A stretch of DNA of 64,000 nucleotides from assembly GCA_015069575.1 (NCBI GenBank), contig SVIH01000003.1, positions 62,001 to 126,000 of the forward strand. The letters are read 5' to 3'. Positions 1,244 to 63,229 of this stretch are shown in pieces. Both the position numbers and the translations under genes were made by a program. This DNA is from Clostridiales bacterium (GTDB lineage: Bacteria; Bacillota; Clostridia; Christensenellales; QALW01). The notes below the pieces were generated by a model. That model had not been told where the DNA came from and did not search any database. It worked only from the letters and a program-made list of their open reading frames with translations. The first letter of the stretch is position 1, and each line of letters starts with the position of its first letter.

Positions 1244-3055
1244 ATGACACTTGATGAAATTTTAATAAAAGTTGATAAGCCCGCCAGATATACAGGTGGC
1301 GAACTTAATATGTGTTTAAAGGAAAATGCAGAAGTTAATTTTGTGTTTTCTTATCCTGATACTTATGAAATGGGTATGTCACATTTAGGTGGAAAAATAA
1401 TTTATCATTTATTAAATGAGCGTGAAGATACTTTTTGCCAGAGATGTTACGCGCCTTGGGTTGATATGGAAGACCTTATGCGCAAAAATAACATTCCCCT
1501 TTTTACTTTAGAAACAAAAATGCCTGTAAAAAATGCTGATATATGGGGTTTTACTCTGCAGTATGAATTAAGTTATACAAATATTTTAAATATGCTTGAT
1601 TTAGGCGGTGTGCCGTTAAGGACAAGCCAAAGAAATGAAAGCGATCCATTAATTGTTGCAGGCGGACCTTGCGCTACCCATGCCCAGATGCTTGCTGATT
1701 TTGTTGATTGCTTTTTGCTTGGTGACGGTGAGGAATCACTTAACGAACTTATTGATATTTATAAATTATGGAAAAATTCAAAATCAAGCAAAAAGGAATT
1801 GTTAAAAATGCTGTCCCAAAACGAAGGTTTCTTTGTGCCTTCGTTATATCAGCATACAATAGACGAAAACGGAAAACTTACAATAACTCCTTTAGAAAAC
1901 GCCCCAAGCACTGTGAAAAGGCGTGTTGTTAAAGATTTTGAAAACACCTTTGCACCTACAAAACTTATCGTACCGTTAATTGAAGTTGTGCATGACCGAA
2001 TTATGCTTGAAATTTTCCGCGGTTGCACAAGAGGTTGCAGATTCTGTCAGGCAGGATTTTTGTACAGACCTATCCGTGAAAGGTCTGTTGATAATCTTAT
2101 TAAAATTGCACGGGCATCAAGCGACGCAACAGGATATGATGAGATTTCTTTAACTTCCCTTTCAAGTGGCGATTACCCACATATTGAAGAACTTATGGAA
2201 CGCCTTAGTTGTGAATTTAAGGACGAGCATATGGATGTTTCATTGCCTTCTTTACGCATTGATTCATTTAATCCTGACCTTGTAAGTACGCAAATGCGTA
2301 AATCTTCGCTTACCTTTGCCCCTGAAGCAGGAAGCCAGCGAATGAGAAATATTATTAATAAAAATGTTTCTGAGGAAGACTTATTAAGAACTGTGCGCGG
2401 TGCTTTTGATGCAGGCTACAGGGCAATAAAACTTTATTTTATGATTGGTTTGCCTTTTGAAACAATGGATGACATTAAAGGCATTTATGAACTTGCAAAA
2501 AAATGCAGTGATATTTACAGGGAAATTCACGGTAATACAAAAAATATGCGTATTACCGTAAGCACATCTGTGTTTATTCCTAAACCATTTACGCCTTTTC
2601 AATGGATAAATCAGGATTCAGAAGAAAGCATTAAAGAAAAACAAAAGTATCTTTCTGACCTTATTCGCACCTTAAGGGGTGTTGATTATAAATATCACGA
2701 CAGCACTGCATCCAAATTGGAGGTTGCATGTGCACGCGGTGGCAGAGAAATGTGTGCTGTTTTATATTCAGCATGGCAAAATGGCGCTAAATTAGATGCT
2801 TGGAACGAGCATTTTAAAATTGATGCATGGGAAAAGGCGTTTAGCGAAAACGGACTTTCTATGGAAGAAATGGCGCAAAGGCTATACGATGTTGATGAAG
2901 TTTTACCTTGGGATACTGTTGATGTTGGCGTTACCAAATCATATTATAAAAAAGAACTTGAACGGGCCAAGAATGAGCAAACTACACATGATTGCAGAAA
3001 CGGTTGTACAGGCTGCGGTATGATGGCACTTTGCAAAAAGGAGGAAACTATTTAA
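1244..3055 (+). CDS. B12-binding-type radical SAM protein, TIGR03960 family
   Basis: The protein has 603 residues. The radical SAM cluster motif CTRGCRFC lies near residues 260-267, so a 4Fe-4S cluster and S-adenosylmethionine radical chemistry are expected. The region before it matches the degenerate B12-binding-like domain of the TIGR03960 family, and the C-terminus ends in a Cys-rich tail (HDCRNGCTGCGMMALC). The substrate of this family is not established. The next gene, a DUF2344 protein, is its constant partner and overlaps it by one nucleotide; in many bacteria a single fused protein carries both. The ATG start at 1244 follows an AGAGG Shine-Dalgarno. Confidence 0.85.
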   Translation: MTLDEILIKVDKPARYTGGELNMCLKENAEVNFVFSYPDTYEMGMSHLGGKIIYHLLNEREDTFCQRCYAPWVDMEDLMRKNNIPLFTLETKMPVKNADIWGFTLQYELSYTNILNMLDLGGVPLRTSQRNESDPLIVAGGPCATHAQMLADFVDCFLLGDGEESLNELIDIYKLWKNSKSSKKELLKMLSQNEGFFVPSLYQHTIDENGKLTITPLENAPSTVKRRVVKDFENTFAPTKLIVPLIEVVHDRIMLEIFRGCTRGCRFCQAGFLYRPIRERSVDNLIKIARASSDATGYDEISLTSLSSGDYPHIEELMERLSCEFKDEHMDVSLPSLRIDSFNPDLVSTQMRKSSLTFAPEAGSQRMRNIINKNVSEEDLLRTVRGAFDAGYRAIKLYFMIGLPFETMDDIKGIYELAKKCSDIYREIHGNTKNMRITVSTSVFIPKPFTPFQWINQDSEESIKEKQKYLSDLIRTLRGVDYKYHDSTASKLEVACARGGREMCAVLYSAWQNGAKLDAWNEHFKIDAWEKAFSENGLSMEEMAQRLYDVDEVLPWDTVDVGVTKSYYKKELERAKNEQTTHDCRNGCTGCGMMALCKKEETI

Positions 3056-13839: not shown

Positions 13840-13856
13840 TTAATAAAACTGTATAT

Positions 13857-13950
13857 CTGCTTGGGGAGTCCTTTAAAAAAGGGCTGAGATTGCAAAAATG
13901 CTAAACCCATTAAACCTGTGTAGATAATCCTACCGTAGGGAAGCTTTAAG
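13857..13950 (+). ncRNA. TPP riboswitch (THI element)
   Basis: The conserved THI-box blocks are present in order: GGGGAGTCC, GGGCTGAGAT, AACCC, AACCTG, and the downstream block TACCGTAGGGAAGC. The aptamer binds thiamine pyrophosphate. It is followed 15 nt later by a hairpin with a T-run and then by thiT, so ligand binding is expected to promote transcription termination and shut off thiamine uptake. Confidence 0.95.
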
Positions 13951-13964
13951 CCTGAAATTTTTGG

Positions 13965-34704: not shown

Positions 34705-34965
34705 ATCCTATCCCACTATTAGTTATGGGACAGGATGTTCATTTTATCCTGCGGTGCCACCCAAATTGAATTACTTCCGCTCTTTTTTCACACTTTTTAA
34801 TGTGATTCGCACTGTAACGGTTGCGCTCCGTCAGAAACTACTAACCTTTCGGCTTTCGGCTGCCCTCATAAGCCCATTCATTTAATACGCCCTTATTGCC
34901 TTACACCAAACGGCAACTCTCTTTAAAGTTTGTAAAAAACTACTATCCTTAATCACAGGTTTATT
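34705..34965 (-). ncRNA. T-box leader, tryptophan specifier
   Basis: On the minus strand the T-box sequence GGGTGGCACCGC is at 34762-34751, followed by a terminator (ATCCTGTCCCA pairing with TGGGATAGGAT, then a T-run, 34736-34700). Stem I has the AGAGAG and GGTG elements, and the specifier loop reads GAA-TGG-G with TGG at 34876-34874, matching tRNA-Trp. Uncharged tRNA-Trp should pair with the specifier and T-box and stabilise the antiterminator, switching trpB on when tryptophan is scarce. Confidence 0.93.
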
Positions 34966-46088: not shown

Positions 46089-46508
46089 ATGTTGAAAAAA
46101 CTTTTTAAAAATCAAAAGTTTTGGGAAATATTTCGTTTTGGCGTTAATGGTGGTATTTGTTTTTTAGTTGATGCCTTTATAATGTCTATTTTAATGGACT
46201 ATACCCCATTACCTGACTGGCTAAGTATCGGTATCGGATTTACGGTTTCTGTAATATTAAATTATATTTTATGCTTGGTTTGGGTTTTTAAAGGCGCAGG
46301 CAAGCAAGACTTAAAATCACAAATTGTGTTTATCGGTTCAAGCATTGTTGGGCTTGGCTTAACTGAAGTTTTAATGCTTTTTGCGTTAAATGTGCTTTTT
46401 ATGCATAAATTAATTGCAAAAATTATCGTTACACTGATAGTAATGGTATGGAATTATTTTATGAAACGCCTTGCTATCTACGGTTTCAAAAATAAAAAAA
46501 GCGATTAA
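46089..46508 (+). CDS. GtrA family membrane protein
   Basis: A 139-residue protein with four transmembrane helices: FRFGVNGGICFLVDAFIMSIL near residue 15-35 (the GtrA opening), GFTVSVILNYILCLVWVF near 55-72 and a C-terminal basic FMKRLAIYGFKNKK. GtrA proteins are small flippase-like or accessory proteins for glycosyl transfer, e.g. lipid-linked glucose translocation. Partner glycosyltransferases are not adjacent. Its stop codon lies within the terminator hairpin, and tRNA-Leu begins 6 nt past that hairpin. Confidence 0.83.
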   Translation: MLKKLFKNQKFWEIFRFGVNGGICFLVDAFIMSILMDYTPLPDWLSIGIGFTVSVILNYILCLVWVFKGAGKQDLKSQIVFIGSSIVGLGLTEVLMLFALNVLFMHKLIAKIIVTLIVMVWNYFMKRLAIYGFKNKKSD

Positions 46509-46520
46509 TAATCGCTTTTT
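46496..46520 (+). terminator. Terminator overlapping the end of gtrA
   Basis: AAAAAGCGATT-aat-AATCGCTTTTT; it ends 6 nt before the tRNA-Leu 5' end. Confidence 0.8.
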
Positions 46521-46525
46521 ATAAT

Positions 46526-46609
46526 GCGGATATGGCGGAATTGGCAGACGCGCTAGACTTAGGATCTAGTGTTTTTGACGTGCAGGTTCAAGTCCTGTTA
46601 TCCGCACCA
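46526..46609 (+). tRNA. tRNA-Leu (anticodon TAG), CCA encoded
   Basis: An 84-nt class II tRNA: acceptor GCGGATA with TATCCGC, anticodon stem CTAGA/TCTAG around CTTAGGA with anticodon TAG, short variable arm, T-arm CAGGTTCAAGTCCTG, discriminator A and CCA. The gene sits directly after the gtrA terminator and is followed by a repeated copy of its own 3' end 199 nt downstream. Confidence 0.95.
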
Positions 46610-46808
46610 AATTAAAACAGACGGTTTTTACCGTCTTTTTTAATTTTATAACAGGACTTGAAACTTAAGAAGGTGCGTAGCGTAAAAAAACAGTACGGTG
46701 TACTGTTTTTTAGCGAAGCAGTGCGAAGACGGGTACCGAATGCGCAAGCATTGGGTCGGCAAGCACGAAAGATTTGCAAAGCAAAGCTTTGTCCTGTTAT
46801 CCGCACCA
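46610..46808 (+). repeat. tRNA-3'-end repeat unit A (terminator + 161-nt core)
   Basis: Between the tRNA-Leu CCA and a second copy of its 3' end. First a terminator (46620-46647), then a 161-nt core (46648-46808). The core starts with an inverted copy of the tRNA T-arm (ATAACAGGACTTGAA, complement of 46588-46602) and ends with a direct copy GTCCTGTTATCCGCACCA. The 33-nt direct repeat 46592-46624 / 46791-46823 is exact and includes 15 nt beyond CCA. Inside are a long hairpin (AAAAAACAGTAC/GTACTGTTTTTT) and blocks GTGCGA (46721), GGGTAC (46731) and GGTC (46754), which recur in unit B next to tmRNA. Confidence 0.7.
46620..46647 (+). terminator. Terminator directly after tRNA-Leu
   Basis: GACGGT-tttt-ACCGTC followed by TTTTTTAATTTT. 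Confidence 0.8.
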
Positions 46809-46819
46809 AATTAAAACAG

Positions 46820-46852
46820 ACGGCAAAAAGATATTATCTTTTTGCCGTTTTA
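46820..46852. terminator. Bidirectional terminator after repeat unit A
   Basis: ACGGCAAAAAGAT pairs with ATCTTTTTGCCGT, then TTTATT; also serves the convergent kinase gene. Confidence 0.8.
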
Positions 46853-47911
46853 TTCATTGATATTAATAATTAATTTGCATCTTTTTTTAATATCTGTATT
46901 ATCAAAATACATTTTTTCAAGCGGAATCCATTCATTAAAAAAGCGTTGTGCCATTTCAGGTGTATTTCTTTTTAATATTCTTTGTTTTTGTATTTTGTCA
47001 GATACATTTAAGAACACAGAAAAATCATAGTATTTTTCAAGTTCAACATGCATAGAATATGCGCCTTCAATTACCGTTAGATTTTTAGGCTTAACAGTTA
47101 TTGTTTCGCCTAAACACATAGTTGAACAATCAAATTTTTCATATGTTATATCTTGCCCATTATTAAGGGGAACAAGCACTTGTTGTAAAAAGCGTTCCCA
47201 ATCAATATTTCCACCAATTTCTTTATAACGCGCCTTTGTTCGTTGATGCATTTGTAAAAAGAAATCATCCATATGAAACACGGTGCAATCATATATGTTT
47301 TCTAACATTTGGCTTAATGTTGTTTTACCGCTTGCACTACCGCCTTCAAGCGCAATTTTAACATTGCCACATTTAAGCATTTTATCAAGTTCTAAAAATA
47401 TGGGCAGATATCTTGCATATTCTTTTGATATAACGCGATATGAAGGATTATAGGCTTTTCGGTAATTTTCAGAATGGTGAACGGGCGGATAACCTTTTTT
47501 TTGCCAAGTAATTTTTTCTTTTATAAAATCTTCCTTTGAAAACGGAATCAGGTTTTCTTCTGCAAGTTGCCCAGCTATCTTTAATTTATTTTCTAAATTT
47601 TCTGATCCATCAACTTCTTTTTTGGCTGAAAGCATAAACAGTTTGCATAAAGTTTTTATTGAAAGTCCCCTATCAATATATGTGAGCGGAACTCTGACAT
47701 AATTACCATCAAGCTTATCTATTTCATCATCTTCATAAAAAACGCTATGGGTATATTCTTCAAAAATACGTTCCGTTACTTTTTCACAAGATGCAACCAG
47801 ATGCTCGCACCCAAAGGCGCTTTGATAAAGAAATTTAAATATATCCTGCACTTGAAGTTCAGGATAGCGTTTGCAATAATCTATAAGTAATCTGCGGGTA
47901 TTTTCTTCCAT
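46850..47911 (-). CDS. Two-domain P-loop kinase, uridine/pantothenate-kinase-like
   Basis: A 353-residue fusion. Residues 1-175 are a helical domain I cannot name (with FLYQSAFGCEHLVASCE and VPLTYIDRGLS blocks). Residues 185-350 are a uridine-kinase/phosphoribulokinase-type kinase: Walker A GGSASGKTT at 190-198, VFHMDDFFLQM near 212, GGNIDWERFLQQV near 231 and VIEGAYSMH near 280. It follows the ECF S-component gene by 4 nt, so it may phosphorylate whatever that transporter brings in, trapping it in the cell. The substrate (a nucleoside-like or vitamin molecule) is unknown. Confidence 0.75.
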   Translation of the reverse strand: MEENTRRLLIDYCKRYPELQVQDIFKFLYQSAFGCEHLVASCEKVTERIFEEYTHSVFYEDDEIDKLDGNYVRVPLTYIDRGLSIKTLCKLFMLSAKKEVDGSENLENKLKIAGQLAEENLIPFSKEDFIKEKITWQKKGYPPVHHSENYRKAYNPSYRVISKEYARYLPIFLELDKMLKCGNVKIALEGGSASGKTTLSQMLENIYDCTVFHMDDFFLQMHQRTKARYKEIGGNIDWERFLQQVLVPLNNGQDITYEKFDCSTMCLGETITVKPKNLTVIEGAYSMHVELEKYYDFSVFLNVSDKIQKQRILKRNTPEMAQRFFNEWIPLEKMYFDNTDIKKRCKLIININE

Positions 47912-51065: not shown

Positions 51066-51277
51066 TGGTGGAGGCGAGGGGTACGCGTGCAGGCACGCTA
51101 TCTGCTCGTTGACCGTTCCGCTTGCTACCGCAATGCTCACAGTACCCAACTCGCACAACAATCCTAAAAACGATTATCAATCGTTTTCTTGACGGATTGT
51201 TCCCTCTCAGGGTTCGACTCCCCTTGCTATACTACTGAATAGTAAAACACACCGCATTTTTGCGGTGTGTTTTCTAT
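51066..51277 (-). repeat. tmRNA-3'-end repeat unit B (terminator + 162-nt core)
   Basis: Downstream of tmRNA on the minus strand: a terminator (51273-51244), then a 162-nt core from 51227 to 51066. The core starts with an inverted copy of the tmRNA T-arm region (51227-51208; one substitution and one deletion) and ends with a direct copy of the CCA end (CCCCTCGCCTCCACCA; 17 nt identical with flank, 51065-51081 against 51277-51293). Inside are a nested hairpin (AACAATCC/GGATTGTT enclosing AAAACGAT/ATCGTTTT) and the blocks GTGCGA, GGGTAC and GGTC at offsets 72, 81 and 114, close to offsets 74, 84 and 107 in unit A. Confidence 0.7.
51244..51273 (-). terminator. Terminator directly after tmRNA
   Basis: AAAACACACCGCA pairs with TGCGGTGTGTTTT, the T-run following the 3' arm on the minus strand. 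Confidence 0.85.
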
Positions 51278-51632
51278 TGGTGGAGGCGAGGGGAGTCGAA
51301 CCCCTGTCCAAAGAAGCGGAAATATGGTTTTCTACGAGTGTAGCCGATGATTAAAGATTCCCCTTTAAGCTTGCACAACGGCACGCTTGCTTATTGGGTA
51401 GCTTCATTTTTCATCGCAATCGCAAAGCTTAGATTGCTGACGTGCACTGCGTGTTTTGGCGCTGAGATCTAAGCCCGCAGTAAGCTTAGGTCAGCGGAAA
51501 CTGCATTAAGCAGCTACTAAATTAGTTCTGTTATTAGCGTTTATATTTACGCTTGGGTTTTTTGCGTGCGCCCCAAAATCACGACTCGCTTACCGTACCA
51601 CCGAACAACCCTGTCGAAACCTTTACGCCCCC
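51278..51632 (-). ncRNA. ssrA: Transfer-messenger RNA (tmRNA)
   Basis: A 355-nt RNA. The 5' end GGGGGCGTAAAGGTTTCGAC and 3' end CGCCTCCACCA pair as a tRNA-like acceptor (seven pairs, one G-U); T-arm GGGGTTCGACTCCCC and encoded CCA are present. The tag reading frame ends GCT AAT AAC AGA ACT AAT TTA GTA GCT GCT TAA, i.e. a tag finishing ANNRTNLVAA; the resume codon was not proven. It lies close to smpB, whose product is its protein partner in rescuing stalled ribosomes. Confidence 0.95.
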
Positions 51633-63140: not shown

Positions 63141-63229
63141 TGGTGCCGAAGACCGGGGTCGAACCGGTACGGGTATTACTACCCACGGGATTTTAAGTCC
63201 CGGGCGTCTGCCTATTCCGCCACTCCGGC
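63141..63229 (-). tRNA. tRNA-Leu (anticodon TAA), CCA encoded
   Basis: An 89-nt class II tRNA on the minus strand: acceptor GCCGGAG with CTTCGGC, anticodon stem GGGA/TCCC around CTTAAAA with anticodon TAA, long variable arm GGGTAGTAATACCC, T-arm ACCGGTTCGACCCCGGT and CCA. Unlike the tRNA-Leu(TAG) at 46526 it has a plain terminator and no repeated 3' end. Confidence 0.95.

Follow-up and report, generated by a model that had tools for sequence, protein, structure and literature searches.

To our knowledge, the rtT repeats of Escherichia coli (RtT RNA, Rfam RF00391, gene rttR) are known from one operon and have no accepted role. In strain K-12 the 178-bp repeats reproduce 19 nt of the tRNA-Tyr 3' end exactly, three times. 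They also carry an antisense T-arm at matching spacing, agreeing at 14 of 17 positions (the best matches of 200 shuffles averaged 10.3, with a maximum of 12). This is followed by AAGGTTCG, the T-stem and T-loop again. The tyrT-tyrV spacer of K-12 is one more unit; in strain SK1144 (L303) the same spacer is 33 bp long and starts with the sequence that comes after the K-12 unit, a precise empty site. The RF00391 model finds all four units in K-12, and a RtT unit match is found in 4680 of 5426 E. coli genomes. Two other described kinds of sequence are relevant for comparison. These are mobile elements integrated at tRNA genes, whose att identity blocks often start at the T-loop and run to the tRNA end, and intergenic repeats of the REP, BIME or MITE type, which are short, structured and present in many copies.

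The DNA studied here, referred to as the window, is the whole stretch of 64,000 nucleotides analysed from contig SVIH01000003.1 of a Clostridiales bacterium (assembly GCA_015069575.1). It encodes tRNA-Leu(TAG) at 46526-46609 (+), found by ARAGORN and by an Rfam tRNA match. In brief, the gene is followed by a terminator, an antisense T-arm, a structured core, the sense tRNA 3' end with CCA and a second terminator. The 33 nt at 46592-46624 (+), which cover the T-stem 3' strand, the acceptor, CCA and 15 nt of trailer, are repeated exactly at 46791-46823 (+) as a copy of the tRNA 3' end. The spacing is 199, and the match is far above chance expectation. A terminator-like stem at 46619-46636 (+) separates the tRNA from the unit and another is found at 46818-46850 (+); in this region there are five terminator-like sites compared with a shuffle mean of 0.6. 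The antisense T-arm copy at 46648-46665 (+) is 94% complementary to 46584-46601 over 18 nt. The rtT-like unit, from antisense T-arm to CCA copy, is located at 46651-46808 (+) and scores 110.2 bits with covariance model R2 (described below), of which it is itself a seed. Its core hairpin, AAAAAACAGTAC / GTACTGTTTTTT, lies at 46685-46711 (+) and is recognized from an inverted repeat and covariation.

A sequence-only reading of the window had described a module placed precisely 3' of the tRNA, with the exact direct repeat, the inverted T-arm and a terminator between the repeat copies, and all of its coordinates hold. It had also held that the module is not a normal integrative element. This agrees with the period of 199 bp and with the five neighbouring proteins scanned: LUD, GtrA, a PRK-like kinase, an ECF transporter and Tex are all ordinary, and no integrase or recombinase domain is found in them. 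For the + strand of 46610-46860 the folding energy is -88.6 kcal/mol (z = -7.97 relative to 200 shuffles), and in the predicted fold the antisense T-arm pairs with the tRNA 3' copy in a stem that encloses the inner part. Elsewhere in the window, Rfam finds a T-box leader at 34723-34965 (-) and a TPP riboswitch at 13852-13958 (+), both of them ordinary.

A second unit is located behind the tmRNA gene, ssrA, at 51278-51632 (-) (ARAGORN and Rfam). The unit itself spans 51066-51224 (-). It matches R1, a covariance model of the core, at 51146-51218 (-) with an E-value of 0.016, and scores 74.8 bits with R2, the unit being among the 24 seeds of that model. By reading of the sequence, the order is tmRNA 3' end, terminator, antisense T-arm GGGGAGTCGAACCC at 51211-51224 (-), core, CCCCTCGCCTCCACCA again at 51066-51081 (-) and a terminator. 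The copied tmRNA 3' end is 16 nt long and the native copy is at 51278-51293. Thus the tRNA-Leu(TAG) unit is no peculiarity of one locus, since the same build is found at other tRNA genes and at the tmRNA of the window. The sequence-only reading was right about the placement of the tRNA-Leu unit, its likeness to rtT and its non-integrative nature, and overlooked both the tmRNA unit in the same window and the family-wide extent. No unit was seen by reading at tRNA-Leu(TAA), 63141-63229 (-). In a set of 30 tmRNA loci of relatives, 29 had no R2 match on either strand at an E-value of 0.05, and the one that matches is the window's own. The unit is absent from the tmRNA locus of the sister species, genome G001, but the flanks cannot be aligned by eye, and we therefore count this as absence and not as a precise empty site.

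Across loci the build can be read as three passes over the host gene. The first, along the tRNA strand, is the intact gene with its terminator. The second is an antisense stretch back through the T-arm, followed by a short loop such as TGAGA, GAGA or AAG; in L105, L183, L187, L193 and L219 this stretch also covers the acceptor or CCA. The third consists of the T-stem 5' strand, the core in place of the T-loop, the T-stem 3' strand, acceptor, CCA and terminator. At four loci (L110 and L142 at tRNA-Ala, L139 and L149 at tRNA-Pro) a mirror version using the D-arm lies upstream of the tRNA. Here the core sits in the D-loop of a duplicated tRNA 5' part: the leader and the tRNA 5' part as far as the D-loop come before it, and it is followed by the D-stem 3' strand, an antisense D-arm, the leader again and the whole tRNA. 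Versions using the anticodon arm are found in L141 and L156. The ends of each unit match its own host gene. In 64 units (65 rows merged to 64), the copy after the core has a mean score of 15.7 with the tRNA end of its own host and of 7.2 with those of other tRNAs; the own end outscores every different tRNA end in 48 of the 64. For the antisense part the corresponding scores are 13.8 and 8.3, with the own tRNA winning in 36 of 64; here ties are expected because the T-loop is common to all tRNAs.

Model R1 was built from 15 core seeds. Model R2 was built from alignment A5, which holds 24 units, all from these clostridial units; they were picked by hand for length and completeness, and all except L009 come from a 33-unit set selected for a tRNA 3' copy matching at 14/20 or better and an antisense part matching at 10/14 or better. 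The sequence-only reading had proposed a covariance-model search, and such models detected related units behind many tRNAs and behind tmRNA. Within the own genome, a second related unit was found behind tRNA-Leu(AAG), opening with the antisense T-arm of that tRNA. The sister species has a unit behind tRNA-Pro(TGG), and genome G035 has two in tandem behind tRNA-Leu(AAG). R1 matches 127 of 396 genomes of the order at an E-value of 0.01, and 34 of 291 genomes of a class sample, which includes the own genome and part of the order, at 1e-4. By hand count, ARAGORN placed a tRNA in range of 51 of 80 listed R1 matches, some of these loci having been found via tRNAs in the first place. In Clostridia the hosts are tRNA genes for Leu, Ser, Pro, Thr, Glu, Gly, Lys, Arg and others, and tmRNA. 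The units are unlikely to be assembly artefacts, as they recur in many independent assemblies and the same build is found in complete E. coli genomes. A unit is also found in one contig with no MAG label in its title, from Lachnoclostridium sp. MSJ-17 (L214, tRNA-Pro).

In a collection of named genomes the core pattern was found in at least 118 stretches with at least 127 units, most of them labelled Clostridia or its families. Among the matches listed, 54 of 127 units have an intact tRNA gene no more than 300 nt away, compared with 6.3% of random positions in the same loci. Among the same listed matches, 47 of these 54 are 3' of the tRNA and on the same strand, five are 3' on the opposite strand and two are 5'. 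The remaining 73 of the 127 listed have no intact tRNA within 300 nt. These include tandem second units, split tRNAs and contig ends, and by eye the units in L161, L171, L175, L201 and L229 adjoin partial tRNA ends; others of the 73 sit in other palindromic repeats (G135, G242). In L135 and L136 (G242) and in L092, L132 and L133 (G135), the same core is found off tRNAs, inside intergenic palindromes of the CCTCCC..GGAGGG type. The core pattern also occurs on contigs labelled Rhodobacterales, Eggerthellaceae, Gastranaerophilales, Treponema and Alphaproteobacteria (L173, L217, L222, L223, L224), which may reflect wrong binning or transfer.

In L024 (Leu CAA, TAG), L034, L036 and L039 an antisense T-arm and a tRNA 3' copy are present and the R1 match to the core is absent or weak, the weak match at L024 having an E-value of 0.011. 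These loci came from a de novo test for 3'-end copies, which was positive for 11 of 110 tRNAs against 4 of 110 upstream controls; four of the 11 are neighbouring tRNA genes. A phage origin was considered and set aside: the window unit gave no match in a phage collection, and three stretches with the core pattern were found in viral contigs. Apart from tRNA and tmRNA, no Rfam 15 family matched the units at gathering score, and all unit matches obtained at permissive thresholds stayed below it. A strong match to the Gut-1 RNA adjoins the tRNA-Ser unit of L063, at 1320-1396 (-). It is a separate, different repeat, and Gut-1 was rejected as the identity of the units.

A study that reportedly presents 224 candidate structured RNAs may have mentioned the units earlier. 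Literature searched by phrase, which returned mostly unrelated papers, gave no description of such units outside enterics. PMC8040213 puts the number of candidate structured RNAs from human microbiomes in the thousands, and the units could be among them.

The seven units that R2 finds in the own genome occupy six of 41 tRNA genes, Leu(TAG), Leu(AAG), Leu(CAA), Ser(CGA), Ser(GGA) and Glu(CTC), and ssrA. The sister species G001, with 41 tRNA matches, shares three of these occupied host genes, Leu(CAA), Leu(AAG) and Ser(GGA), and also carries a truncated unit at Leu(TAG) and a unit at Pro(TGG). Ser(CGA) and ssrA are unoccupied in G001, as is Pro(TGG) in the own genome. The sequence-only reading had held that a defined element would be refuted if close relatives lacked the arrangement or resembled it only at random; the units of G001 show that this is not the case. 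R2 matches outside the seeds are found in G000:C15, G001:C27 (two) and G001:C34, with E-values of 6e-19 to 1e-12. At Glu(CTC) of G001 (L413) there are tandem tail repeats with an unrelated core, ending in the tRNA-Glu end GGGGGTGCCA, which indicates that other sequences too take up the tRNA-tail layout.

For the three host genes that carry whole units in both species, the core was nearest to a unit at another host gene of its own genome, and not to its orthologue, in six of six comparisons. The identities to the own-genome neighbour and to the orthologue were 0.89 and 0.83, 0.90 and 0.83, 0.83 and 0.70, 0.90 and 0.70, 0.84 and 0.61, and 0.77 and 0.61, respectively. It should be noted that the test covers three host genes, and that mean core identity is close within genomes (0.71) and between them (0.67), so that the signal lies in the nearest neighbours. 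Based on these six comparisons, we infer that cores move or are converted between host genes while the arms are rewritten.

In genus g42, tRNA-Ser(TGA) is followed by a unit in all five readable species, and the cores differ in sequence and even in orientation. The loci left out of this set were L294 and L296 (other strand), L298 (only tRNA-Ser(GGA), other strand), L290 and L302 (no usable tRNA) and L292 and L293 (none). Presence of a unit in all five species fits a useful element as well as it fits a hot spot.

In alignment A5 (24 units), pairing reaches 88.7% in the closing stem, where five of seven pairs show changes on both sides, and 95.1% in the core hairpin, where six of 12 pairs do. 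Covariation of the closing stem could be yielded by copying alone, and that of the core hairpin could not. The covariation score of the whole structure is 0.439, compared with 0.177 in shuffled alignments (0 of 500 reach it) and a maximum of 0.115 in slid ones. The number of pairs changed on both sides (11 against 8.6 shuffled, with 40 of 500 shuffles reaching it) and the number of further pair types (26 against 26.0, with 310 of 500 reaching it) are not above the shuffles. One pair of the core hairpin is G-U on the tRNA-sense strand in 15 of 24 units. In 31 of the 33 units the tRNA-sense strand has the more stable fold of the two strands, and the means are -58.0 kcal/mol for sense and -51.0 kcal/mol for antisense. 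Kinship among the units weakens both the covariation and the strand-folding counts. Taken together, core covariation and the sense-strand bias suggest an RNA made by read-through. The reverse orientation of the core in five of the 54 tRNA-near units among the matches listed fits selection on an RNA poorly.

We consider it somewhat probable that the units are rtT-like tRNA-tail elements, in which sequence copied from the host gene flanks a structured RNA core behind a tRNA or tmRNA gene. Comparison of the loci shows many hosts, host-specific arms, likeness of cores within a genome, tandem arrays and differing occupancy. New arms would be made by fold-back copying, in which the template is switched between the T-arm and the terminator, both of them palindromic; alternatively, an imperfect hairpin may be repaired to match the host tRNA. 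The resulting direct repeats would then let units multiply or drop out through ordinary recombination, and cores would move or convert between host genes as proposed above. A tRNA-sense RNA would probably arise from read-through of the tRNA terminator, with the copied ends forming its closing stem. We lean towards persistence mainly by hitch-hiking on essential genes that are left intact, with host use possible, in view of the patchy occupancy and of cores that fail to track their host genes. The wider proposition is that a minimal mobile RNA class exists across Clostridia behind tRNA and tmRNA genes, whose core moves and whose ends are re-made with the host unbroken, rtT being a stranded member of this class. 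On that we are evenly divided.

A different explanation is that the read-through unit is an RNA useful to the host, regulating or buffering the maturation of the tRNA or tmRNA, and that conversion does no more than keep it tuned. The antisense T-arm could pair with either the real T-arm or the downstream copy and act as a switch, or as a decoy in 3'-end processing. The tRNA-Ser(TGA) units of the five g42 species, present with a changing core, the more stable sense-strand folding and the 47 of 54 units lying 3' of the tRNA on the same strand, among the matches listed, speak for this. It is weakened by the low occupancy in the own genome, by the differing occupancy in the sister species, by the lack of an R2 match at 29 of the 30 tmRNA loci of relatives, and by the D-arm and anticodon-arm versions (L110, L139, L142, L149, L141, L156), which are unfit for a single T-arm mechanism. 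We regard it as rather doubtful. Reverse transcription of the unit RNA with its CCA end, self-primed at the terminator hairpin and followed by reinsertion beside tRNA genes, would explain why the antisense part in L105, L183 and L187 resembles a snap-back copy running from terminator to CCA, acceptor and T-arm. It would also suit tmRNA, which has a tRNA-like end, as a host. However, the D-arm versions in L110 and L142 hold upstream leader sequence that would be absent from a mature RNA, and a retro-element of this kind is in our opinion quite improbable.

That the unit is a tiny satellite or a scar of site-specific integration, with the 33-nt repeat as attL and attR, we judge more improbable still. 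The direct repeat does span the T-loop to the tRNA end, as att identity blocks do. In L052/L088 and L089, genes that resemble large serine recombinases when their translations are read end at an apparent tRNA CCA junction directly before a unit, and these loci look as if an integrated element had split the host tRNA from it; L052 and L089 can be counted in favour of the integration reading. Against it stands, besides the lack of a recombinase domain in the five neighbours, the same core with ends fitted to many tRNAs, which a fixed attP cannot give. We know of no inverted T-arm copies or D-arm versions among the products of tyrosine or serine recombinases. Local tandem duplication by chance followed by decay, with no element involved, could bring about a lone 33-nt direct repeat. 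The spread of R1 matches in the order, the recurrence of units behind many unrelated tRNA genes and their host-matched ends refute it, and its probability is negligible.

If the core travels and the ends are rewritten, this would be a form of spread that maybe needs no encoded protein and spares an essential target, and it would account for the direct and inverted repeats around tRNA ends in these genomes. Now that it is seen behind many tRNAs and tmRNA across a large class of bacteria, the shared build turns rtT from a curiosity into a testable class. There is also a consequence for annotation, since copies of tRNA 3' ends beside tRNA genes are usually taken for integration scars.

The units resemble islands and prophages at tRNA 3' ends in that a direct repeat of the tRNA 3' end, found also in the window, flanks the insert and the tRNA stays whole. 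They differ in having no integrase, in being shorter than 250 bp, in forming tandem arrays, in their inverted T-arm copy and in ends that are rewritten for each tRNA. The related core is found at many kinds of tRNA and at tmRNA, and not at one fixed target. With REP-, BIME- and MITE-like repeats the units share their short, structured and multi-copy nature, and the core is also found in the palindromes of G242 and G135. They are unlike such repeats in that many sit at tRNA genes and take their terminal arms from the host gene.

The rtT repeats are the closest match, and by sequence comparison they are of the same build as the clostridial units, which form a large and largely unnoticed family in gut bacteria. 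We do not claim membership in RF00391, as its model matches neither the window at gathering score, nor 46480-46900 at an E-value of 10, nor eight other unit loci at an E-value of 5. R1 finds nothing significant in rtT. In 3.3 kb of E. coli, the four RtT units are the four best R2 matches (21.6 to 13.8 bits), a score that comes partly from tRNA-like ends, as the window's own tRNA-Leu gene reaches 16.9 bits. Homology of the core with rtT was therefore rejected as a claim; the R1 null and the modest R2 scores mean that a shared build is claimed and common descent is not shown. PMC7657543 reports a tandem GA motif for RtT, and GA-rich internal loops are seen by eye in several clostridial cores. 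A table in PMC2658671 that covers Salmonella Paratyphi A and Typhi lists rtT with a 175-bp VNTR.

The parallel drawn by the sequence-only reading, which rested on the copied tRNA 3' end, is stronger than it had supposed, since the E. coli repeat has an antisense T-arm as well. In both systems the unit stands singly or in tandem behind a tRNA, and its last part copies the 3' end of the host tRNA, CCA included; in the window this copy is part of the exact 33-nt repeat. Both open with an antisense T-arm, have the T-stem 5' strand and part of the T-loop before the core, and are closed by a stem of the antisense part and the copy, present in the window unit and also in the Rfam structure. The rtT repeats have tRNA-Tyr as host in E. 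coli and, by eye, no terminator-like stem before the unit in K-12, whereas the window unit follows tRNA-Leu and the terminator at 46619-46636. The clostridial units are set behind many tRNAs and tmRNA, after a terminator, and carry a long AAAACAG/CTGTTTT hairpin.
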